The notes beneath the pieces are model-generated. The model was not told the origin of the DNA and searched no databases. It was given only the letters and a program-made list of their open reading frames with translations. The translations under genes and the position numbers were made by a program. From the NCBI GenBank assembly GCA_026388375.1, contig JAPLJX010000354.1, forward strand, positions 1-32,846: 32,846 bases of DNA. The letters are read 5' to 3'. The DNA is from Deltaproteobacteria bacterium (GTDB lineage Bacteria; Desulfobacterota; Syntrophia; Syntrophales; UBA5619). Within the stretch, counting starts at the first letter, position 1; each line of letters starts with the position of its first letter. Shown piece after piece: positions 11,561 to 23,394 of the stretch.

Positions 11561-12322
11561 ATGGATCAATTGGACGCTATTTACCTCACAAAACACCGTC
11601 AGATTATTGAAGCCTTAACAACGGAGATGCAAGAGTGCCGCTTGAAGCCTTACGATCGCCTCCCCTCGGAAAAAGAGTTGTGCGAACAGTGGCAGGCCAG
11701 TCGGAGCACGGTGCGCAAGGCCATGGATCAGCTTGCTGACCGTGGAAACATCTTTCGTGTGCCCGGGAAAGGCAGCTTCGTATCGTTCCCGAAGATATCG
11801 CATAACGTGTCTCAGGTTCTGAGCTTTTTGGAAAAAATGAAGGCGCAGGGCCTGGATGTTGTGACAAAGCTCATCCAGAAGCAGATCATCGAACCGAACG
11901 AGGAGATCAGGGCGGCCTTGAAACTTGACAATGGGGCACGTGTTTTGAAGATCCAGCGGTTGCGGATTGTGAAAGGCGAACCCCTGGTCCTGCAAACCGC
12001 TTTCATGCCATCGAATATCTGCGGGGAACTCATGAAAGCAGACCTCGAATTAGAGTCTTTGAACTATTTACTTCGGGAGCAATGTAACATCAAGTTGTCG
12101 CGAAGCGACATCTTGATCGAAGCTCCGATTCTTTCCACAAAGGAAAGGCAACTGCTGGGGAATCCCCGTGTCCCTATTTTTTTGGCCGTCGTCGGTTTGA
12201 CATTCGATCAGAATGACAAACCGATCCGATTCAGTCGCGGCATTTTTCGCGGGGATCGGGTACGATTGAAGATCAGCGACTCGAGCGTCTTTGAGTTGAA
12301 CTATTCAGATCTCCTGGGGTAA
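11561..12322 (+). CDS. GntR-family (HutC/UTRA) transcriptional regulator
   Basis: RLPSEKELCEQWQASRSTVRKAMDQLADRGNIFRVPGKGSFVSF followed by a UTRA-like domain. Confidence 0.92.
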   Translation: MDQLDAIYLTKHRQIIEALTTEMQECRLKPYDRLPSEKELCEQWQASRSTVRKAMDQLADRGNIFRVPGKGSFVSFPKISHNVSQVLSFLEKMKAQGLDVVTKLIQKQIIEPNEEIRAALKLDNGARVLKIQRLRIVKGEPLVLQTAFMPSNICGELMKADLELESLNYLLREQCNIKLSRSDILIEAPILSTKERQLLGNPRVPIFLAVVGLTFDQNDKPIRFSRGIFRGDRVRLKISDSSVFELNYSDLLG

Positions 12323-12389: not shown

Positions 12390-12439
12390 TAGGCGATGAA
12401 TATCTCCATGACAGAGAAATGATAAGAAAAGGGTCAGGT

Positions 12440-13351
12440 ATGGCTAAACGTTTTGAAGGCATTTATCCCCCGGTCATCACGAGTTTTACGGAAAGCGGCG
12501 ATATCTACGAAAAAGGGATTCGCCAGGTGATCGGCTATCTGATGAGCGAAGGCGTTCATGGCTTTTTCATCAACGGCTCTTACGGCAGCGCAGTTCTGAT
12601 GACCGTCGAGGAGAGAAAGAAAGTTGCCGAAATCATCCATGGTGAGGTGAACGGCCGTCTTCCCATCATAACCCATGTCGGCGAGGCATCCACGCGGGCG
12701 ACGATCGAACTGGCCAAACACGCCGAGGGCCTTGGTTCGGCAGCGGTGGCGGCCGTTGTGCCTTACTACTATTCCGGAGCGAACGCCTACGATGAGGGCC
12801 AGATTATCCGTCATTACGCCGATATTGCGGCATCGGTCGATGTGCCGACGTTCATCTATAACAACCCCCGGACAAGCTGCTACAACCTGACTCCCGAATT
12901 ATTAGCCGGGCTGGTGAAGGTCGGAGTCCTCGGGATGAAGGATTCCAGCGGCAGCTTCACGCTGCTGGGAGAGTTCAATCAGGCGGCGACCCAGGTGAAT
13001 CCGGATTTTACCTGCATGTCCGGTTCGGTAGGACTGCTGCAGCCGGCATTCAACATCGGCCTCAAAGGGTGTATCGCAGGAACTGCAAACGCCTTTCCCG
13101 AGCTGGTCGTTTCCCTGTACAAGGCACTGGAAGCCCACGACTGGGAGAAGTCCAGGGAACTGCAAACCATCGTCATTGCCCAGCGCAAGATTCAAGCTGC
13201 AAGCGGGTTTCGTCCGGCGGGATGCTACACCTTCCTCAAATTGAAAGGGATCGATTGTGGTACGGTCCGCCGACCCTGGCGTGAACCGAATGAGCAGGAA
13301 ACCCGATACATGAAGCAGGAAGCCATAAAACTCGGCCTGCTCAGAGGATAA
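12440..13351 (+). CDS. Dihydrodipicolinate synthase / N-acetylneuraminate lyase family protein
   Basis: MAKRFEGIYPPVITSFTESGDIYEKG, GSYGSAVLMTVEERKKV, PTFIYNNPRTS, GMKDSSG (Schiff-base Lys). Confidence 0.88.
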   Translation: MAKRFEGIYPPVITSFTESGDIYEKGIRQVIGYLMSEGVHGFFINGSYGSAVLMTVEERKKVAEIIHGEVNGRLPIITHVGEASTRATIELAKHAEGLGSAAVAAVVPYYYSGANAYDEGQIIRHYADIAASVDVPTFIYNNPRTSCYNLTPELLAGLVKVGVLGMKDSSGSFTLLGEFNQAATQVNPDFTCMSGSVGLLQPAFNIGLKGCIAGTANAFPELVVSLYKALEAHDWEKSRELQTIVIAQRKIQAASGFRPAGCYTFLKLKGIDCGTVRRPWREPNEQETRYMKQEAIKLGLLRG

Positions 13352-13546: not shown

Positions 13547-15085
13547 TCAGAATGTCGGCACCGGGAAGAGGATCCCACCAAAGATCAGGTAGGACAGAAT
13601 CAGCGTCCAGATGATGTTGACCCCCTGAGCTGTCAGAAACACCAAGGCCGGTTTTCCGCCGCCCATCTGGATGAGTTCCTTGAACTTGGTCTCAAGACCG
13701 ATGCAGAGGAAGGCGAGCGTGAACCACCAGCCCCGAAGCCCCGCGGTGACGCCCGCTACGGATTTTGCCTGAGCTTCCGTAATGAAGAAGGAGAAGACGA
13801 TGGAAGCGACGATGAACCCGAGGACGAACTTGGGGAAACGCGTCCAGATCTCCATGAGGCTCGGTTTCTCCCCCCCGGCTGACTGCCCCTTGAAGGCGAA
13901 CCAGATGGCAAGGAGGAAAGCCGCCACTCCGATCAGGACATTCTGCGCCATCTTGACAACGACGGCAACCGCCATTGCCTCCGGCCCGGCGATCGCACCC
14001 GCGGCCACGACGGCCCCGGTCGTATCGATGGTGCCGCCGATCCAGGCCCCGGTAACGCCCGGCAGCATGCCGACAGCCTTGGCAATGATGGGTTCGAGGA
14101 TCAGCATGGGAATGGCGCAAAGCAGAACGAGGGAGATGGTGTGGCTCACCTTTTTGGAGTCGCCCTTGACGGCGCCGCCGGCGGCGATGGCGGCGGAGAC
14201 GCCGCAGATGGACACGGCCGAGCCGAGAATGGCGGCAAATTCATCGTCGAGTCCCACTTTGCGGGCGAACCAGATAGTGAAGTAGAAGATGCCCCCAATG
14301 ACCAGAATGGACTGGACCATTCCATAGGCGCCCACCTTGGCGATGGTGCCGAAGAGAACCTCGGCGCCCAGGAGGACGAGACCGATCTTGATGAAGTACT
14401 CCGTCTTGAGGGCAGTCTTCAACCAATCGGGCACGCCCACTGTGTTGCTGATCAGAAGGCCAAAGATCAGTGACCAGAAGACGACCTCCAGACCGTAGTA
14501 TTTAACGATATCGTTTTCGGAAACGAAATAGGCAAGGGCCGAGAGGATGAAAATGATGGGAAACCCGGCCATGAACTTGCCTACCGGCATGCCCATGAAG
14601 GCCATGCCGATGACGCAGAGGATCGCAAACCCGATAAACAGGTAGAGCGCCTTCATGAGGTTGTCACCGGAGAAGACTTTTGCCACGGTCGCCCCGGCGT
14701 CGCCCTTGATATCCGAGGCCACCTTTGCGGACTTCTTTTGAAAATCCTTGTCTTTGACCTCCTTGGCGGCCGCTTCCATCTTGCCGGCGGCTGCACCAAT
14801 GGCCTTTCGGTCCTTGGCGTCGAGCGCTGCCTTGAGCGCCGTCGCCTGGTCTTTCAGGGCGGTTTCACCTTTTGCTTCCGCGTCCTTGGCTACGGAATCC
14901 ACTTTTTTTGCATACCCTGCAATCTTGTCCTGGAAGGACCCATCCCCGACCCATTTCCATCCGGGCAGCGACATGGTCATCCCCGCCAGGAAGAAGATGA
15001 GGATGAAAAACCCGATCCAGACGGACATCCAATCATCGCTTTTCCACAGAACAGACCAGTTGATACCCTTGCTATTTTCTCCCAT
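13547..15085 (-). CDS. YeiH-type (UPF0324) putative sulfate exporter with extended N-terminal region
   Basis: MGENSKGINWSVLWKSDDWMSVWIGFFILIFFLAGMTM..., FGLLISNTVGVPDWLKTALKTEYFIKIGLVLLGAEVLFG, GVSAAIAAGGAVKGDSKKVSH. Confidence 0.82.
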   Translation of the reverse strand: MGENSKGINWSVLWKSDDWMSVWIGFFILIFFLAGMTMSLPGWKWVGDGSFQDKIAGYAKKVDSVAKDAEAKGETALKDQATALKAALDAKDRKAIGAAAGKMEAAAKEVKDKDFQKKSAKVASDIKGDAGATVAKVFSGDNLMKALYLFIGFAILCVIGMAFMGMPVGKFMAGFPIIFILSALAYFVSENDIVKYYGLEVVFWSLIFGLLISNTVGVPDWLKTALKTEYFIKIGLVLLGAEVLFGTIAKVGAYGMVQSILVIGGIFYFTIWFARKVGLDDEFAAILGSAVSICGVSAAIAAGGAVKGDSKKVSHTISLVLLCAIPMLILEPIIAKAVGMLPGVTGAWIGGTIDTTGAVVAAGAIAGPEAMAVAVVVKMAQNVLIGVAAFLLAIWFAFKGQSAGGEKPSLMEIWTRFPKFVLGFIVASIVFSFFITEAQAKSVAGVTAGLRGWWFTLAFLCIGLETKFKELIQMGGGKPALVFLTAQGVNIIWTLILSYLIFGGILFPVPTF

Positions 15086-15615
15086 GCATTTATACCTCCC
15101 TTTCAAAAAAATTTTCAGCTCGTCGTGATCATGGCAAACTGAAGACACCCAATGAACCTTCAGGTAGGAGGGTGTTCTTTCCGGACACCTTCATACCCTC
15201 ACCGAAAACGCCAAAAGAGCAGCCGACCTGCTGCGGAATATCATCATTGGATAGGGATATGGTTATGGTTAACAGGGAAGGGATGATCTTTCTGTGGGCA
15301 AGGCACATGTCATCACCAATTGAATGTTAAATCTAATAAAAATAAGGTGATTCGAGTTATATAAAATTGCGTTACGGATGCAAGCTTCTCAAACTCTCTT
15401 CAGTTGAAATCGATTATTACCCTCCTCTCTCAGGATTAATGAAAACGTGGACACGTGTATAGCAGAAGAATGGTTTTGTTGCAATAAAAATTAATAAATA
15501 TTGATAGCATTGTTAGGAGGCTTCTGCCCGGGATGTGATGTTTAACCTTCCCAAAAACCGTTAGAGATTTTGACAAACCTGAGCTAAGATACGCCTGCCA
15601 TAGGAGAAAAATGCC

Positions 15616-16476
15616 GTGATTACTCCTGCAGAGGAAGCCTATACCCGGGCACAGGCCTATGTTCCCGAGCACATTGTGAGCCTTATGACCCTGATTTCGC
15701 ACGGGGATCCTTTTCTTATCGAGGACTACCTGGGGCTTGTAAAGGACAACTGGCTCATCTTTGTGGGATATCCGCTCGCAAGCAATTTTCTCAGGGAAAG
15801 ATGTGGGGGGATTGTGCAACGGGCGGTGGAAACATTCCGGCCTGAATACCTTTGGTTTATCGGACCCGAAATCCCTCCTTCCCTTTTGGATGCCTGTAAA
15901 GAGAGGCAAACGGATCAATACTACAACATTGACATCGAGCAGACAAAGCTGAAGCCTTCTCTCCAAAAGGCGGCCGATAAAGCCGCTGAGGAATTAATCG
16001 TGGAAAGGGGTCACTCTATTTCCAAGGAGCATGAGGCGCTTATCTCAGAACTCCTGAAGAGGGAGAAGTTGCCGGCGCGTGTGAGAGAACTTTACCGTGC
16101 CATGCCCGATTACGTCGGTCACTCATCAAGCGCCTGGATACTAAATGCGCTTGATAAAACGGGAAAACTTTGCGCCTTCACGGTTGTCGAGTTGGGGGCA
16201 AAGAATTTTTCCACCTACGTCCTTGGTTCGCATTCAAAAAAGCATTATGTGCCTCATGCCTCTGACCTTCTTTTCCTCGAAATGATCAAGCTGACACGCG
16301 AACACGGAAAAAACACCATCAATTTAGGACTGGGAGTAAATGAGGGCATCCGGAGATTCAAGGAAAAGTGGGGCGGCAAACCATTTCTCAGGTACGAATT
16401 CTGTGAGTGCCGATACGCGGCGGCAAGGAAAGTCTCGCTGATTGATGCACTCATGAGAAAATATAACCATCCATAA
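15616..16476 (+). CDS. GNAT/FemAB-like putative acyltransferase, paralog 1
   Basis: GTG start; MITPAEEAYTRAQAYVPEHIVSLMTLIS... KLCAFTVVELGAKNFSTYVLGSHSKKHYVPHASDLLFLEMIKL...INLGLGVNEGIRRFKEKWGGKPFLRYEFCEC. Clear paralog of 17315..18154. Confidence 0.6.
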   Translation: MITPAEEAYTRAQAYVPEHIVSLMTLISHGDPFLIEDYLGLVKDNWLIFVGYPLASNFLRERCGGIVQRAVETFRPEYLWFIGPEIPPSLLDACKERQTDQYYNIDIEQTKLKPSLQKAADKAAEELIVERGHSISKEHEALISELLKREKLPARVRELYRAMPDYVGHSSSAWILNALDKTGKLCAFTVVELGAKNFSTYVLGSHSKKHYVPHASDLLFLEMIKLTREHGKNTINLGLGVNEGIRRFKEKWGGKPFLRYEFCECRYAAARKVSLIDALMRKYNHP

Positions 16477-16493
16477 ACCTTCGTGAGATATCA

Positions 16494-17318
16494 ATGAACT
16501 TATTCCCCTGGAAGGAAAAACGTTTGAGGACGGTTTGGAGGGTGGAAAAAAACGGCACGGGATCTTTCCTCGTGGGAACGGCCCATTTTTCGCCTTACAG
16601 CTTCCGGAAAGCCCTGACCGGGCTGGTCCAAGGATCCGAAACCGTTCTCTTCGAAGGCCCTCTCGATCAGGAGAGCATGGCCGGGGTTGCCCTATACGGC
16701 TCCCGCGGAGAGGATACTCCCTCCGTTTACGATTCTCTTGACCCCGCCGTCATCCGGGAGATCAACCGGCAGTTGGCCAACCGATCGGGACCGATTACCA
16801 CGGCAGGTTCCTTTCTGGATCTCATCAATGTGAAGACTTCCGGTTTTCTTGAAGAACACGCACGGGGTGTCCGCCCCTGGATGGCTTTTTTCACGACATG
16901 GTCCGCCTTTTTGAACTGGAAACATTCAATGGACGTGGAAGCCTTCCATATCGCCCGGAAGCTTGGGAAAGAAGTCGGATACCTGGAAACCATTGAAGAC
17001 CAACTAGCAGCCCTGGACGGGATCCCTTTTGATAGAATTGTGAATTATTTCCATCGGTTTCAGCATTGGAACGTCCACAAGGAATTGTTCGCCAAGGTTT
17101 TCATCGAAGGGAATCCGCAGAACTACCTGTCCATAACAGGAGAATTCCCGACCCGTTGCGAATCCATCATCGGGAAGCGTGATCCCATATTCTTCAGGGG
17201 AATAAAGGCCTCCTTCGAGAAAAGGCAAACGACCGCCTTCGTTGGGGTCGGCCATATCCCCGGAATCCGGAAAATGTTTCTCGACGAAGAATACCGGGTC
17301 ACTCAGGAATGGCCATGA
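16494..17318 (+). CDS. TraB/PrgY/TIKI-like (GumN-related) domain protein
   Basis: TVWRVEKNGTGSFLVGTAHFSPYSF, YLETIEDQLAALDGIPFDRIVNYFHRF, TAFVGVGHIPGIRKMF; GxxH-type motif pair at N and C ends. Confidence 0.65.
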   Translation: MNLFPWKEKRLRTVWRVEKNGTGSFLVGTAHFSPYSFRKALTGLVQGSETVLFEGPLDQESMAGVALYGSRGEDTPSVYDSLDPAVIREINRQLANRSGPITTAGSFLDLINVKTSGFLEEHARGVRPWMAFFTTWSAFLNWKHSMDVEAFHIARKLGKEVGYLETIEDQLAALDGIPFDRIVNYFHRFQHWNVHKELFAKVFIEGNPQNYLSITGEFPTRCESIIGKRDPIFFRGIKASFEKRQTTAFVGVGHIPGIRKMFLDEEYRVTQEWP

Positions 17319-18154
17319 TCACCGCCGCACAGGAAGAGTATATCGAACGTCAGGCATACCTACCGGAACACGTTCCCGAGTATGTGACTGCCATTTCCCA
17401 GACGGAGGCGTTTCTCTTCGGAGACTTTCTTGCCTATGCTAAAAAAGGCCATTTAATTCTCGTCGGATATCCTTTAGAGGAGCCCTTTGAGGAGAAACGA
17501 ATGGAAAGGGCGCTTGAAGATGCGGTAAAACGCTTCAACCCGGGAAGTGTCTCCCTGATGGCCCCTTCCATGCCCGCCTCCTTTGAAAACGGAGACCATC
17601 CTCCCACCGACCATTACTATCGCCTGGACCTTTCATCCGTTAATATTTCTCAAAAATTGAGAAATATGGTAAAGCGGGCGGGCAGAGAACTCTCAGTGGG
17701 GGAAAACACCCATTTTGATGAGGGCCATAAGGAGATGATTGAAGCATTCCTGAAGACCCATGCCGTGGATGAAGCAACCCGGTTCATCTTTCAGAGAATC
17801 GATCAATATCTCTCCTCATCAAAGACTGCAACGATCTTCGATGCGAGAACCAGCGGGGGTAAGCTTGTTGCCTTCACCATTGTTGAGTTTAAACCAAGGG
17901 ACTATGCCCTGTATATGTTTAATTTCAGCTCGGACGCCCGATACGTTCCCGGGGCATCGGATATTCTTCTTTCCCGGGTGATACAACAGGCCAAAACAGA
18001 GGAGCAAAGATATATCAACCTGGGTCTGGGGATCAACCCCGGTGTCTCGTTCTTTAAAGAGAAGTGGGGGGGCGTCGCATTTCTCCCCCATGCCTTCTGC
18101 CTATACCATCCATCACGAAAGGGGCTTCTGGAGATGATTCTCCAGTGGTTGTGA
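17315..18154 (+). CDS. GNAT/FemAB-like putative acyltransferase, paralog 2
   Basis: ATGA overlap with upstream stop; MITAAQEEYIERQAYLPEHVPEYVTAIS... KLVAFTIVEFKPRDYALYMFNFSSDARYVPGASDILLSRVIQ...INLGLGINPGVSFFKEKWGGVAFLPHAFCLY. Confidence 0.6.
   Translation: MITAAQEEYIERQAYLPEHVPEYVTAISQTEAFLFGDFLAYAKKGHLILVGYPLEEPFEEKRMERALEDAVKRFNPGSVSLMAPSMPASFENGDHPPTDHYYRLDLSSVNISQKLRNMVKRAGRELSVGENTHFDEGHKEMIEAFLKTHAVDEATRFIFQRIDQYLSSSKTATIFDARTSGGKLVAFTIVEFKPRDYALYMFNFSSDARYVPGASDILLSRVIQQAKTEEQRYINLGLGINPGVSFFKEKWGGVAFLPHAFCLYHPSRKGLLEMILQWL
17643..17667. repeat. Perfect intragenic palindrome (11-bp arms, 3-nt loop)
   Basis: ATATTTCTCAA-AAA-TTGAGAAATAT inside acyltransferase paralog 2. Confidence 0.8.
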
Positions 18155-18158
18155 GGCG

Positions 18159-19262
18159 ATGATTGAAAAGATTTTTGGTAAGTTTCAGCGAAGAAAAAAA
18201 AGGCGACCCTTTTCAACGTGGCAGATCGAATTGACCACACGCTGTCCTCTCCTGTGCAAGATGTGCATCCGCTCAGAAAGTACGGAATGGCAATACCAGG
18301 ATATGCCTCTTGAGGATTTCAAAAACATCCTTCCCTACCTGAAGGATGTTGAAACCGTTGTTCTCGAAGGGTGGGGGGAATCCCTGCTTCATAAGGATCT
18401 TACTGAATGCATCAGGCTGGTTAAGAACGAGGGGACACAGGTTGGGTTCGTCACCAGCGGGATGGGATTAACAGAGAATCGCGTGTCTGAACTCATCGAA
18501 GCGGGTATTGATTTTGTGGGTTTCTCGATCGCGGGAACAACTACGGAAACACACGATGCCATCCGGGTCAACTCCCACCTCCCAGAGGTTCTTGACGCCA
18601 TTCGTCTATTTCAGGAAGAGAAAAAACGCCGGGGGCTTCTTAGACCGAAAATGCACCTCATCTTTCTCATGGTCAAAGACAATATCCATGAGGTTCCCTC
18701 GGTTCCCTCTTTTACGAAGGAAGCAGGACTTGAAGAGGTTATTCTCACCAACATCTGTCATACGATTAATCTCTGGCAGGAAACACAGAGGGTATTTATA
18801 TGGGAAAACGCGGTGAACCAATATGACGAGATTCTTAAACAGGTGGAAATCAATGCACGAAAGTTGCATATTCGCCTCAAGAAACCATCCCTGTCCGTCA
18901 TCGATGTGCCTGTGTGTGCAGAGAACCCGTTCGGCAGCCTTTACATCTCCGCAGAGGGCGAGGTTTCGCCCTGCGTCTATCTCTACCCTCCTCTGCCATC
19001 ACCGTTTAAACGAATCTTCTGTGAGAAGGAATACCTGACTGAGAAGGTAACTTTCGGCAACGTCTTTAGCGATTCTTTCTCCGCGATATGGAGTTGCAGC
19101 AATTATGAAGCGTTTAGAAACCGTTTTCATGAGAGAAAAAAAGCATATCGGGATCTATACTTTTCGCTCTGGGATAGTCCGCGGTTGAAAAACGCTCAGG
19201 AGAACGTCCTTCCGGAGCCCCCGGAGCCGTGTAAAACCTGCCATAAAATCCTTGGAATCTGA
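18159..19262 (+). CDS. Radical SAM / SPASM-domain protein
   Basis: WQIELTTRCPLLCKMCIRS (CX3CX2C), VVLEGWGESLLHKDL, C-terminal SPASM-like GSLYISAEGEVSPCVY...FGNVFSDSFSAIWSCSNYEAFRNRF...CKTC. Confidence 0.88.
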   Translation: MIEKIFGKFQRRKKRRPFSTWQIELTTRCPLLCKMCIRSESTEWQYQDMPLEDFKNILPYLKDVETVVLEGWGESLLHKDLTECIRLVKNEGTQVGFVTSGMGLTENRVSELIEAGIDFVGFSIAGTTTETHDAIRVNSHLPEVLDAIRLFQEEKKRRGLLRPKMHLIFLMVKDNIHEVPSVPSFTKEAGLEEVILTNICHTINLWQETQRVFIWENAVNQYDEILKQVEINARKLHIRLKKPSLSVIDVPVCAENPFGSLYISAEGEVSPCVYLYPPLPSPFKRIFCEKEYLTEKVTFGNVFSDSFSAIWSCSNYEAFRNRFHERKKAYRDLYFSLWDSPRLKNAQENVLPEPPEPCKTCHKILGI

Positions 19263-19460
19263 CACGAGGGGGAAAAAATACATACCGTACCCTGGACAGA
19301 ACGATCTTACGCGGCTATAAAAATTTTTTATTTTCTATTGCAATAAGATTATTCCTCTGCTATACGCGTCTACACGTTTTGTAATATTAAGAGATAAGGC
19401 TGGTAAGCGGCCTTTAAACAAGCATATATGAGCGAATCATAAGAGAGAGGAGGAAAAGTA

Positions 19461-20651
19461 ATGGCGGAATCAAAAACACCCCTTCTAGATCAACTGGAAG
19501 GAGGAAAATGGCCCAGCTTCGTTAAGGATATTAAGCAGGCAGCAGAGAAGAAGCCTATGGCGGAAGATCTTCTCCAGCAGTTGGAACTTTCCTATAAGGA
19601 TAGGATCGGTCACTGGAAACACGGGGGCATCGTCGGTGTCAAAGGCTACGGTTCCGGGGTGATCGGGCGATACTCGGACCGCCCCGATCTGTTCCCCAAT
19701 GTTCAGGCCTTTCATACCATGAGGGTCAATCATCCCACGGGGTGGTTCTACAAGACGGATGCGCTTCGCCACCTCTGCGATGTCTGGGACAAACACGGCA
19801 GCGGTCTGATGAACATGCACGGCTCCACCGGGGATGCTATCCTCCTGGGGACAACGACGGATCATATACAGCCCTGTTTCGACGATCTTACGGAAGCCGG
19901 ATTTGACCTCGGTGGCTCCGGCTCCGCCCTCCGGACCCCAAGCGCCTGTGTGGGACCGGGACGTTGTGAATGGGCCTGTATCGACTCTCTCGATATCTGT
20001 TACAACGTTACCATGAGTTTCCAGGACAAGATCCATCGCCCAATGTTTCCCTACAAGTTCAAGATCAAGGTTTCGGCCTGCCCGAATGACTGTGTCGCCT
20101 CCATCGCCCGCGCGGATTTTTCCGTAATCGGCACCTGGAAAGGGGATATCCGTATCGACCAGGGAGAGGTTGAAGCATACGCCGCTTCCGGACTCGATAT
20201 CCAGAAGGAGGTCTGTGATCTTTGCCCCACGAAGTGCATGGAGTTGGATGGGAAAAAAATAAAAATCTACAACAAGGACTGTACCCGGTGCATGCACTGC
20301 ATCAATCTGATGCCGAAGGCACTGAGGCAGGGTGAGGAGAAGGGCGCCACCATCCTCGTCGGTGGTAAAGCACCGATTTTGCAGGGGGCTCTCCTTTCCT
20401 GGGTCATTGTACCGTTCATGAAACTGGAGCCGCCCTACGAGGAGCTGAAGGATCTCGTGCTCCGGATTCAGGACTGGTGGGACGAATACGGCAAATCGCG
20501 GGAGAGGCTCGGTGAGCTGATCAAGCGCCTGGGGATGAGGGTTTTCCTGCGCGCGGTGGGACTGCCCGCGGTACCGCAGATGGTAAAGGCCCCGAGGACA
20601 AACCCCTATGTCTTCTTCTGGCCCGAAGATATCAAAAAGGAGGTGAAGTAA
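19461..20651 (+). CDS. dsrA: Dissimilatory sulfite reductase subunit alpha
   Basis: [83 protein letters not shown]. Confidence 0.97.
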
Positions 20652-20652
20652 A

Positions 20653-21714
20653 ATGGCAAAGACGGATATCGGCCCCCCTGATTACAAGACCATGCTGCCC
20701 CCCGTGATTGCTCGCAACTACGGGAAATGGCGCTATCATGAAATTCCCCAGCCGGGGTTACTTGTGCATACGGCGGAGTCGGGAGAGAAGCTTTACTCGG
20801 TCCGGGCCGGATCGCCGCGCCTCGTATCGACGGATCACATCCGGGAGATCTGCGCGATCGCCGAGAAATACTGCGACGGCTACCTGCGCTTTACGAGCCG
20901 CCACAACATCGAGTTTCTCCTCTCCGACAAGGACAAGGTGACCCCCCTTCTGGCGGAACTCGAAAGCAAGGGCTACCCCGTCGGCGGCACGGGACACGCC
21001 ATCTCGAATATCGTCCACACCCAGGGATGGGTGCACTGCCACACGCCGGCGACGGATGCTTCAGGTCCGGTCAAAGCCCTGATGGACGAGATCTATGACT
21101 ATTTCGTTACGATGAAACTTCCCAACCATGTGCGGATCGCCTTGGCCTGCTGCCTGAATATGTGCGGCGCCGTCCACTGCTCCGATATCGCCATCCTCGG
21201 CATCCATCGGACGGTTCCCAAGCCGGACAACACGCGTGTTCCAAATGTCTGCGAAATACCAAGCACGGTGGCCTCCTGCCCCACGGGCGCAATCCGCGGG
21301 GATATGAAAAACAAGACCATCACGGTAAATGACGAAAAGTGCATGTACTGCGGAAACTGCTACACGGTCTGTCCGGCCATGCCCATCGCCGATCCCGACA
21401 ACGACGGCATTTCCATCTGGGTGGGGGGGAAGGTTTCCAACGCCCGCAGCGCACCCTCGTTTTCCAAGCTGGCGATCCCCTTCCTCCCGAACAACCCGCC
21501 GCGGTGGCCGGAGGTTGTTGATGCCGTAAAGAACATCATCGAGGTCTACGCCAGCCATGCAAGGAAACATGAACGGGTCGGGGAATGGATCGAGCGGGTC
21601 GGGTGGGAGCGGTTCTTCACCCTGACCGGAATTCCGTTCACTGACAAGCACATCGATGATTTCGATATGGCCACGGAAACCTTCCATTCATCGACGCTGT
21701 TCAAATGGGAGTGA
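20653..21714 (+). CDS. dsrB: Dissimilatory sulfite reductase subunit beta
   Basis: [81 protein letters not shown]. Confidence 0.97.
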
Positions 21715-21969: not shown

Positions 21970-23394
21970 ATGAACCGACCGATCCCCCGCCTTGTCCTGG
22001 CCGCCCTCCGGGGCGGCGCAGGGAAGACCACGATTTCCGTGGCCCTGGCCGTGGCCATGCAAAGGCGGGGAATCGGGGTCGTTCCCTTCAAGAAGGGGCC
22101 TGACTACATCGACGCCGCCTGGCTATCCCTGGCGGCGACGGGGCCCTGTTATAACCTCGATACCTTCCTGATCGGTCGGGAGCAGGTTATCCGCTCTTTC
22201 TCACGTCATGCACCGGAGGGTTCCGTGTCGCTGATTGAAGGTAATCGGGGGCTCTACGACGGAATGAATCCGGAGGGCGAGCACAGCACCGCCGAGCTGG
22301 CAAAACTGCTTCGTGCCCCGGTGGTTCTGGTGGTTGACTGCGATAAGGTCACCCGCACTATAGCGGCCATGGTTCTCGGGTGTCAGGGACTCGATCCGGA
22401 AGTGGATATCCGGGGCGTGATCCTCAACCGGATCGGAGGGAGCCGCCATGCGGCCATTGCACGAAGATCCGTTGAGGATTACTGTCACGTCCCTGTCCTC
22501 GGTGTCGTTCCGAGGCTGGGGGATGTGGACTTTCCGTTTCCGGAGAGGCATCTCGGACTGATTCCGCCGCAGGAGCATGACCGGGCCCGGGGGGCATTGA
22601 GCAGGGCGGGCGACATCGCCGAAGAATGTCTGGATGTCGAACGTCTGATCCATCTGGCACAAGGCGCCCCCCCTTGGAACGTGGATGCGATTCAGCATGG
22701 CGCTACCGAGGAGGGGATCGCGTGCGAGCCGGTCACGATCGGCGTGATCCGGGATGCGGCCTTTCAGTTTTATTATCACGAAAACATCGAGGCATTGGTA
22801 GACAGTGACACCCGGATTGTGGAAATCAGCGCCATCGAGGGGGAAAGCATGCCCGCCGTGGATGCGTTATACATCGGCGGCGGCTTTCCCGAAACGCAGG
22901 CAGGGCTGCTCGCCGAAAATGAGGGTTTCCGCCGTTCCCTCCGCGATGCCGCAGAAAACGGTCTGCCGATCTATGCCGAATGCGGAGGATTCATCTATCT
23001 GGGCGAATCCCTGACGATCGGCGATGCCCACTACCCGATGGTCGGCGCCCTGCCCATTTCGTTTGGGATGGAAAAGCGCCCCCAGGGACACGGGTATACG
23101 GTTCTGGAAGTGGAGCGGGAAAACCCTTTTTTCCCGATCGGAATGCAGTTAAAAGGCCACGAATTCCATTACTGCCGGATCCTCTCCTGTGAGGTAGGCG
23201 AGTACCATCTGGCCTTTCGGGTCACGCGGGGAACAGGTATGGACGGCAAGCGGGACGGCATGACCAGGAAAAACATCCTGGCCGGCTTCACCCATCTTCA
23301 CGCCTTGGGAACGCCGCAATGGGCTCCCGCTCTGATCGGTGCAGCCAGAAGGTACCGTGCCGAAAGGCACAATAACGCACAATCAACCATTTAA
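21970..23394 (+). CDS. dsrN: Cobyrinate a,c-diamide synthase-like / siroheme amidase DsrN
   Basis: CbiA-type: VLAALRGGAGKTTISVALA, FKKGPDYIDAAWLSLAATGPCYNLDTF, GLYDGMN, ALYIGGGFPE, YAECGGFIYLG; located in dsrABDN order. Confidence 0.9.
   Translation: MNRPIPRLVLAALRGGAGKTTISVALAVAMQRRGIGVVPFKKGPDYIDAAWLSLAATGPCYNLDTFLIGREQVIRSFSRHAPEGSVSLIEGNRGLYDGMNPEGEHSTAELAKLLRAPVVLVVDCDKVTRTIAAMVLGCQGLDPEVDIRGVILNRIGGSRHAAIARRSVEDYCHVPVLGVVPRLGDVDFPFPERHLGLIPPQEHDRARGALSRAGDIAEECLDVERLIHLAQGAPPWNVDAIQHGATEEGIACEPVTIGVIRDAAFQFYYHENIEALVDSDTRIVEISAIEGESMPAVDALYIGGGFPETQAGLLAENEGFRRSLRDAAENGLPIYAECGGFIYLGESLTIGDAHYPMVGALPISFGMEKRPQGHGYTVLEVERENPFFPIGMQLKGHEFHYCRILSCEVGEYHLAFRVTRGTGMDGKRDGMTRKNILAGFTHLHALGTPQWAPALIGAARRYRAERHNNAQSTI

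Follow-up and report, generated by a model that had tools for sequence, protein, structure and literature searches.

Four adjacent genes at positions 15616 to 19262 of contig JAPLJX010000354.1 (assembly GCA_026388375.1), from a Syntrophales member of the Desulfobacterota, recur together in several phyla, and it is virtually certain that they represent a real conserved module. The DNA analyzed is 32,846 nucleotides long and is called the window below. The genes code for two FemX/MprF-like transferases of the GNAT type (GNAT1 and GNAT2), a TraB/PrgY/GumN-domain protein (TraB), and a radical SAM/SPASM enzyme (rSAM). We propose, at slightly less than even odds (about 0.45), that they constitute one module of two half-modules, GNAT1 with TraB and GNAT2 with rSAM, which would serve DsrAB-based metabolism through a cycle of aminoacyl transfer, radical modification and release. 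The broader claim, that the function of the module is tied to Dsr or sulfite metabolism, is probably correct.

A conserved four-gene module

All four genes lie on the plus strand. The first open reading frame (ORF1, GNAT1, 15616-16476) has a GTG start with AGGAG ahead of it and codes for a tandem-GNAT type protein of 286 amino acids from a TraB-linked clade. ORF2 (16494-17318) codes for the TraB protein of 274 amino acids (PF01963), a putative hydrolase or protease. ORF3 (GNAT2, 17315-18154), from an rSAM-linked clade, likely starts with the ATG at 17315, which we prefer to the mechanical ORF start at 17309, and ORF4 (18159-19262) codes for the rSAM protein of 367 amino acids (PF04055 and PF13186). 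ORF1 and ORF2 are separated by 17 bp, ORF2 and ORF3 share a 4-bp ATGA overlap (17315-17318), and ORF3 and ORF4 are separated by 4 bp. An initial annotation of this DNA had described four packed genes with these gaps and this overlap, and the ORFs bear it out.

Four relatives (G030, G016, G015 and G009) have the same four genes in the same order, and across phyla the order is either this one or a permutation of it. Because this arrangement recurs in relatives and across phyla, the grouping is more than chance. The initial annotation had named a failure of the four genes to co-occur in other genomes as grounds for abandoning the cassette; they do co-occur. Close relatives of the same class keep not only the gene order but also neighbors coding for a YeiH-family protein, a GntR regulator, a DHDPS-type aldolase and a BPL_N protein. 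The distribution is nevertheless patchy, with module genes in 9 of the 155 genomes of the window's class.

Scanning species genomes of bacteria and archaea uncovered 76 loci, which together with the window give the 77 loci counted below. These loci come from Desulfobacterota, Nitrospirota, Nitrospinota, Chloroflexota, Tectomicrobia and archaea, plus single examples from a betaproteobacterial bin, a Firmicutes genome and an Aminicenantes genome. Many of the records are metagenome bins, and the host of any single record can be wrong. Profile searches find both GNATs, TraB and rSAM together in 37 of the 77 loci, and many of the remaining loci run up to a contig edge. In archaea, Firmicutes and Aminicenantes, the loci carry only a GNAT gene, with or without rSAM, so that bacteria alone are shown to have the complete module.

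Adjacent cassette genes on the same strand overlap or lie within 60 bp of each other at 103 of 139 junctions, 31 of which are exact 4-bp overlaps. Such conserved tight junctions support the earlier proposal that the four genes are very likely co-transcribed. Two loci (L071 and L077) instead place two pairs on opposite strands, as A2-A1 and A1-A3. GNAT1 and TraB are fused in Desulfovibrionaceae and some other Desulfobacterota, and GNAT2 and rSAM are fused in four loci (L090, L093, L096 and L098). Gene fusions are standard evidence of joint function. The GNAT1-TraB and GNAT2-rSAM partnerships are kept across Desulfobacterota, Nitrospirota, Nitrospinota and Chloroflexota, and by this sequence comparison the module is ancient, the paralogs having split with each partner kept over several phyla. 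A chance neighborhood of four unrelated genes has nothing in its favor beyond the lack of a known pathway, and it is refuted by the order, overlaps and fusions kept in several phyla and by the parallel phylogeny of the paralogs; its probability is negligible.

Several loci depart from the usual layout or carry additional genes. Two Nitrospirota loci (L048 and L056) have two TraB copies, in the order GNAT1-TraB-GNAT2-TraB-rSAM, and L048 also has two YeiH genes. At positions 6043-7371 of L039 (G003:C183), GNAT1 and TraB form one frame of 442 amino acids in which part of both is missing, the result of either a fusion by deletion or a faulty assembly. Proteins of about 200 amino acids matching NF038143 ('HYxxLL'), often in tandem, accompany Desulfobacterota modules in L037, L062, L063, L065-L068 and L082, and some of these loci also hold a metallo-beta-lactamase-fold protein or an alpha/beta hydrolase. 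NF038143 is a family without known function, and we found no description of it in open-licence literature. The recurrent short ORFs near the cassettes are antisense or frame shadows of larger genes. Recurrent neighbor clusters 3 and 8 likewise look like antisense ORFs and were ignored.

Proteins of the two half-modules

The GNAT paralogs (ORF1 and ORF3) are 35% identical over 272 amino acids. A tree of 123 GNAT domains from the module loci splits into two sides with a support of 100. The first side holds 63 domains that precede TraB or are fused to it. Most of the 60 domains on the other side adjoin the rSAM gene or form one protein with it, and this side includes the archaeal copies. GNAT1 thus belongs with TraB and GNAT2 with rSAM, and the two are not interchangeable. 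The initial annotation had described GNAT/FemAB-like paralogs flanking the TraB gene. The paralogy and the resemblance to FemX and MprF stand, but the tree removes the idea of equivalent flanks. An NLGLG...FKxKWGG signature is largely invariant in the profiles of both clades, and we take its C-terminal FKxKWGG-type part to be comparable with the motif of FemAB and MprF.

ORF1 alone has no relevant Pfam match, and ORF3 stays below the cut-offs of LPG_synthase_C (22.1 bits, cut-off 27.5) and Acetyltransf_6 (17.3 bits, cut-off 22). The related L090 fusion passes the latter with 24.5 bits, and 19 of 51 GNAT1 members match this family. The AlphaFold model of ORF3 has a predicted local distance difference test (pLDDT) score of 93.5 and adopts a tandem-GNAT fold. 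Its closest folds in the PDB are FemX (E=2.5e-12, TM 0.66), L-PGS (2.9e-11) and Sbb17 (2.6e-10), with A-PGS, MprF and the aminoacyl-tRNA-dependent peptide synthase Sba18 also among the best. The fold search covers ORF3, and ORF1 is assigned as its 35% identical paralog. Because tandem acyl-CoA GNATs and N-myristoyltransferases also match the model, at weaker E-values, aminoacyl-tRNA is a probable donor. In a profile search of PDB sequences, GNAT1 yielded one chance-like match (MYB) and GNAT2 none.

ORF2 was described earlier as a TraB/TIKI-type protein, and it indeed matches PF01963 over residues 14-270 (E=1e-23, 84.8 bits, cut-off 26.8). Residues E54, W129, D147, E165, R229, G251 and H254 are invariant over 52 relatives, and H31 is nearly so. 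The AlphaFold model (pLDDT 90) gave only weak matches in the PDB, to a Tetrahymena complex IV subunit, which are uninformative on function, and a profile search of PDB sequences gave no match.

ORF4 exceeds the Pfam cut-offs for both Radical_SAM (66.5 bits) and SPASM (49 bits), in agreement with the initial annotation. The CX3CX2C motif (C29, C33 and C36) and the SPASM cysteines C253 and C272 are invariant over 37 relatives, and the usual C-terminal CxxC is formed by C358 and C361. The best NCBIfam models, TIGR04311 (155.7 bits, cut-off 400) and TIGR04317 (151.4 bits, cut-off 380), score under half of their cut-offs. TIGR04317 describes the rSAM maturase of a tungsten oxidoreductase, and the best of the others scanned against it reached 159.8 bits. 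No other window protein of the cassette reaches a curated NCBIfam equivalog cut-off either, which upholds the statement that the set matches no nameable pathway. Solved relatives of the cassette rSAM profile include BtrN, PqqE of pyrroloquinoline quinone (PQQ) biosynthesis and SkfB; they are mostly peptide or small-molecule enzymes, which would fit such a role for ORF4 and do not decide it. With catalytic motifs invariant in TraB, rSAM and GNATs, the cassette enzymes look intact.

Modification of an envelope lipid is one alternative. The GNATs could aminoacylate a lipid, from which TraB would remove the amino acid and which rSAM would alter, making the membrane resistant to sulfite or sulfide. 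In its favor, GNAT2 matches LPG_synthase_C more often than any other Pfam family (in 35 of 54 members, at scores below cut-off), and the fold search for ORF3 places L-PGS, A-PGS and MprF near the top. However, GNAT1 matches this family in only 1 of 51 members, FemX outranks the LPG synthases in the fold search, no membrane domain of the flippase type accompanies the GNATs, and ORF4 has the solved relatives noted above, so that we regard lipid modification as an improbable but live alternative.

Association with dsrAB, YeiH and a shared promoter-like element

The dsrA (19461-20651) and dsrB (20653-21714) genes, identified from the sequence alone, lie on the plus strand and adjoin the cassette without being part of it; dsrA starts 198 bp downstream. 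They are followed by a gene at 21970-23394 that by eye resembles CobB/CbiA (DsrN type). Its product is a possible siroheme amidase, which would fit a siroheme-dependent Dsr.

The association with dsrB extends far beyond this locus. Of 395 sampled genomes of the phylum, 30 carry the cassette TraB (E <= 1e-20, two of the 30 matches being weak or partial and the overlap read by hand), 191 carry dsrB and 28 carry both (Fisher p=1e-7). Among 50 module genomes picked across phyla, 43 have dsrB, and so do all six Chloroflexota carriers tested (L043, L052, L057, L059, L060 and L080). The background in the class of L057 is only 7 dsrB genomes of 150, three of which are module carriers. The corresponding Fisher p is 1e-8 if all six carriers share this class, which is an assumption for three of them. 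These statistics take no account of phylogeny or habitat. Genome-wide co-occurrence with dsrB above background, by which we would recognize a Dsr accessory module, was thus found. Only 7 of the 77 loci hold dsr-like ORFs. The association is therefore one of whole genomes, and we rejected the idea that the module is generally linked to dsr genes on the DNA. One genome of the phylum sample (G382) is 100% complete and has the cassette TraB without a dsrB match, and the other sampled members of its family and genus have dsrB.

The strong co-occurrence would also be expected if rSAM and its GNAT modified a particular enzyme of the Dsr pathway (or another iron-sulfur, molybdenum or tungsten enzyme), with TraB as the processing protease. 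In support, TIGR04311 and TIGR04317, the named families that ORF4 resembles most, are putative maturases of metalloenzymes, but ORF4 scores far under their cut-offs. However, most dsrB genomes lack the module. Therefore DsrAB itself cannot generally need it, and a general requirement for Dsr was rejected. Two different aminoacyl-type transferases are also unexpected for a simple maturase. We consider protein maturation a rather unlikely but live alternative.

Another explanation is that the genes belong to a specialized-metabolite cluster, such as one for an antimicrobial or a product like a ribosomally synthesized and post-translationally modified peptide (RiPP), that has its habitat and its horizontal transfer in common with dsr genes but no role in sulfur metabolism. 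Such clusters typically contain rSAM/SPASM enzymes and aminoacyl-tRNA-dependent ligases, and the patchy distribution in the window's class is consistent with this idea. In contrast, the dsrB association holds far from dsr genes, YeiH is the partner that recurs, the recurrent neighbors include no clear exporter or immunity gene, and the short ORFs within 1.5 kb of the 77 cassettes include no conserved precursor or scaffold peptide. A metabolite cluster is therefore very improbable.

Many module carriers might reduce sulfite. An aprA match above cut-off was found in 20 of 58 carriers (only carriers were scanned). The window's genome (95% complete) and two relatives (G015 and G030) have dsrB and no aprA match above cut-off, in genomes that are 92-100% complete; the gene content of all three indicates that they are probably sulfite rather than sulfate reducers. 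With recognizable aprA lacking from most carriers tested, many look like reducers of sulfite and not of sulfate. In L181 (G019:C59, 75-10487), a run of genes lies between a cassette rSAM (78% identical) and an element of the dsr-side type described below. The run codes for an AprA-like protein that is divergent (398.6 bits, under the cut-off of TIGR02061) and, judged by eye, for a substrate-binding protein, an SLC13-like transporter, a ferredoxin-like protein and subunits resembling Hdr. Other AprA-like matches below cut-off are present in G540, G554, G570, G573, G580 and G583.

The main genomic partner of the cassette is yeiH (13547-15085, minus strand), a divergent neighbor that codes for a YeiH-family (PF03601) transporter. 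A YeiH-family gene is present in 23 of the 77 loci. In the window's class, homologs with at least 74% identity are found in the eight GNAT-bearing genomes in which the locus is more than a small fragment, and in no others. A homolog with 66% identity is carried by one genome that lacks the cassette. More distant homologs lie a few kb from dsrB in seven genomes of the Syntrophales type (G033, G097, G104, G061, G052, G035 and G102). The window's genome has a second YeiH paralog (50% identical) beside a DsrB-like ORF (23% identical) in L178 (G000:C155, 3-2793), which by eye also holds cystathionine-synthase-like genes. In Salmonella, yeiH is sulfite-induced and the main determinant of sulfite resistance, although sulfite transport itself was not shown there (PMC12880088). 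We found no description of YeiH with Dsr in open-licence literature.

The intergenic region between yeiH and the cassette is 530 bp long (with the ATG at 15085 taken as the yeiH start) and has a GC content of 41%, versus 55.6% for the window. The initial annotation had correctly placed the cassette directly upstream of dsrA and behind an AT-rich region of this length. As a link to Dsr, this adjacency holds but is incomplete, leaving out the YeiH partner, a shared element and the genome-wide co-occurrence with dsrB.

This element is present in two near-identical copies with the common form TTGCAA-N17-TATACR followed by CGTSTMCACGTTT. The first copy (15443-15484, minus strand; TTGCAA-N17-TATACA, then CGTGTCCACGTTT) points to yeiH, and the second (19338-19380, plus strand; TTGCAA-N17-TATACG, then CGTCTACACGTTTT) points to dsrA. 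About 75 bp are alike between the region upstream of dsrA and the yeiH-cassette region, with a local alignment score of 96 versus at most 45 in 1000 shuffles. The core matches twice in the window versus 0.00 expected, and no third copy was found in the window's genome. After TATACR, the copies carry GT-N-T-N2-AC (GTCTAYAC in most), with an operator-like GT-N-TA-N-AC core. Its copies in nine related genomes are nearly confined to the cassette locus and to sites ahead of dsr-linked genes, gntR and a split-Soret cytochrome gene; one further copy is near the aldolase gene of G015.

The sequence resembles a sigma-70 promoter combined with an operator of the HutC/PhnF-type GntR regulators, the consensus for which was reportedly defined by Rigali et al. 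in 2002. The neighboring GntR/UTRA (PhnF/HutC-like) protein (11561-12322, plus strand) is a candidate for the factor that reads the element. We provisionally set aside a mobile-element end as an explanation, given the promoter layout and the positions before split-Soret cytochrome, gntR and dsr-linked genes in relatives. The gene that follows the regulator (12419-13351, plus strand) codes for a DHDPS/NanA-family aldolase or lyase and is kept beside the cassette only in close relatives.

Proposed chemistry and comparison with known systems

In the proposed mechanism, the FemX/MprF-like transferases would add amino acids from aminoacyl-tRNA to an acceptor, which might be a protein, a peptide or a small amine. 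Radical chemistry of the rSAM/SPASM enzyme would then alter the aminoacyl conjugate, leaving the TraB-family hydrolase to trim or release the product. Such a write-modify-release cycle, like that of 3-thiaglutamate, could yield a modified residue or a small cofactor used by sulfite respiration or protecting it, and YeiH might move sulfite or a related anion. A scaffold peptide could be encoded elsewhere, or the acceptor could be a protein or small molecule. We infer the donor, the reaction order and the substrate, as well as the part played by the module in sulfite metabolism. A peptide, protein or lipid modification system, as the initial annotation suggested, is not established.

Several observations weigh against the proposed module for DsrAB-based metabolism. 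Its relation to dsrB is one-way, part of the co-occurrence could be confounded by anoxic habitat, and 7 of the 50 module genomes gave no dsrB match. Four of four other dsrB-bearing Chloroflexota gave no GNAT match, although this search had no positive control. TraB or rSAM is absent from some loci, partly at contig ends. The aminoacyl-tRNA donor rests on a fold likeness with TM about 0.6 and 13-16% identity, and neither FemX nor MprF in the PDB set is matched by the GNAT sequence profiles. No acceptor, substrate, scaffold peptide or product was identified, and the small-ORF search around the cassettes yielded nothing but the shadows of larger genes noted above.

Among anaerobic respirations, dissimilatory sulfite reduction is one of the oldest and most important, and the genes it uses are generally considered known. 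A module present in several bacterial phyla and partly in archaea, yet almost confined to carriers of dsrAB, points to an unrecognized biochemical step or product. An ancient pathway, tRNA-dependent and using radical SAM chemistry, that makes a new cofactor derived from an amino acid or peptide, or a new protein modification, dedicated to DsrAB-based sulfite respiration in bacteria and partly in archaea is a tentative possibility, with the odds against it. The module also offers a handle on the true electron acceptor of many lineages that are dsr-positive and apparently apr-negative (Syntrophales, Anaerolineae and some archaea). FemX-like GNATs, TraB proteins and radical SAM enzymes are not known to us to work together, and this module combines them in one unit. 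No library model covers the combination, and we found no description of it in open-licence literature.

The closest parallel in logic is 3-thiaglutamate, in which a tRNA-dependent addition is followed by modification on a scaffold and proteolytic release (PMC9016710). The likeness concerns the proposed logic only. The enzyme types of that pathway were not recognized here, FemX-like GNATs take the place of the peptide aminoacyl-tRNA ligase (PEARL), and the conserved small peptide ORF expected for a RiPP or pearlin-type system is absent within 1.5 kb, with a scaffold elsewhere being possible. FemX/FemABX, MprF (an LPG synthase) and the streptothricin enzymes Sbb17 and Sba18 have a two-lobed GNAT fold like that of ORF3. 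The cassette GNATs, in contrast, share only 13-16% identity with these proteins, stay below Pfam cut-offs, lack a membrane part, and are two diverged paralogs fixed to TraB and rSAM partners.

With the TraB/PrgY/GumN and TIKI family, ORF2 shares the full-length Pfam match and the invariant acidic and histidine residues, but the cassette TraB is tied or fused to a FemX-like GNAT, and no relative with known function was identified. Likewise, ORF4 has the CX3CX2C motif and the GX4C pattern of SPASM cysteines in common with TIGR04317, TIGR04311, PqqE and other rSAM/SPASM enzymes, whereas its neighbors, unlike those of the TIGR04317 and TIGR04311 enzymes, are GNATs, TraB and YeiH. Each single domain is known, whereas as a system the module fits no known kind; this concerns the system and need not extend to its chemistry.

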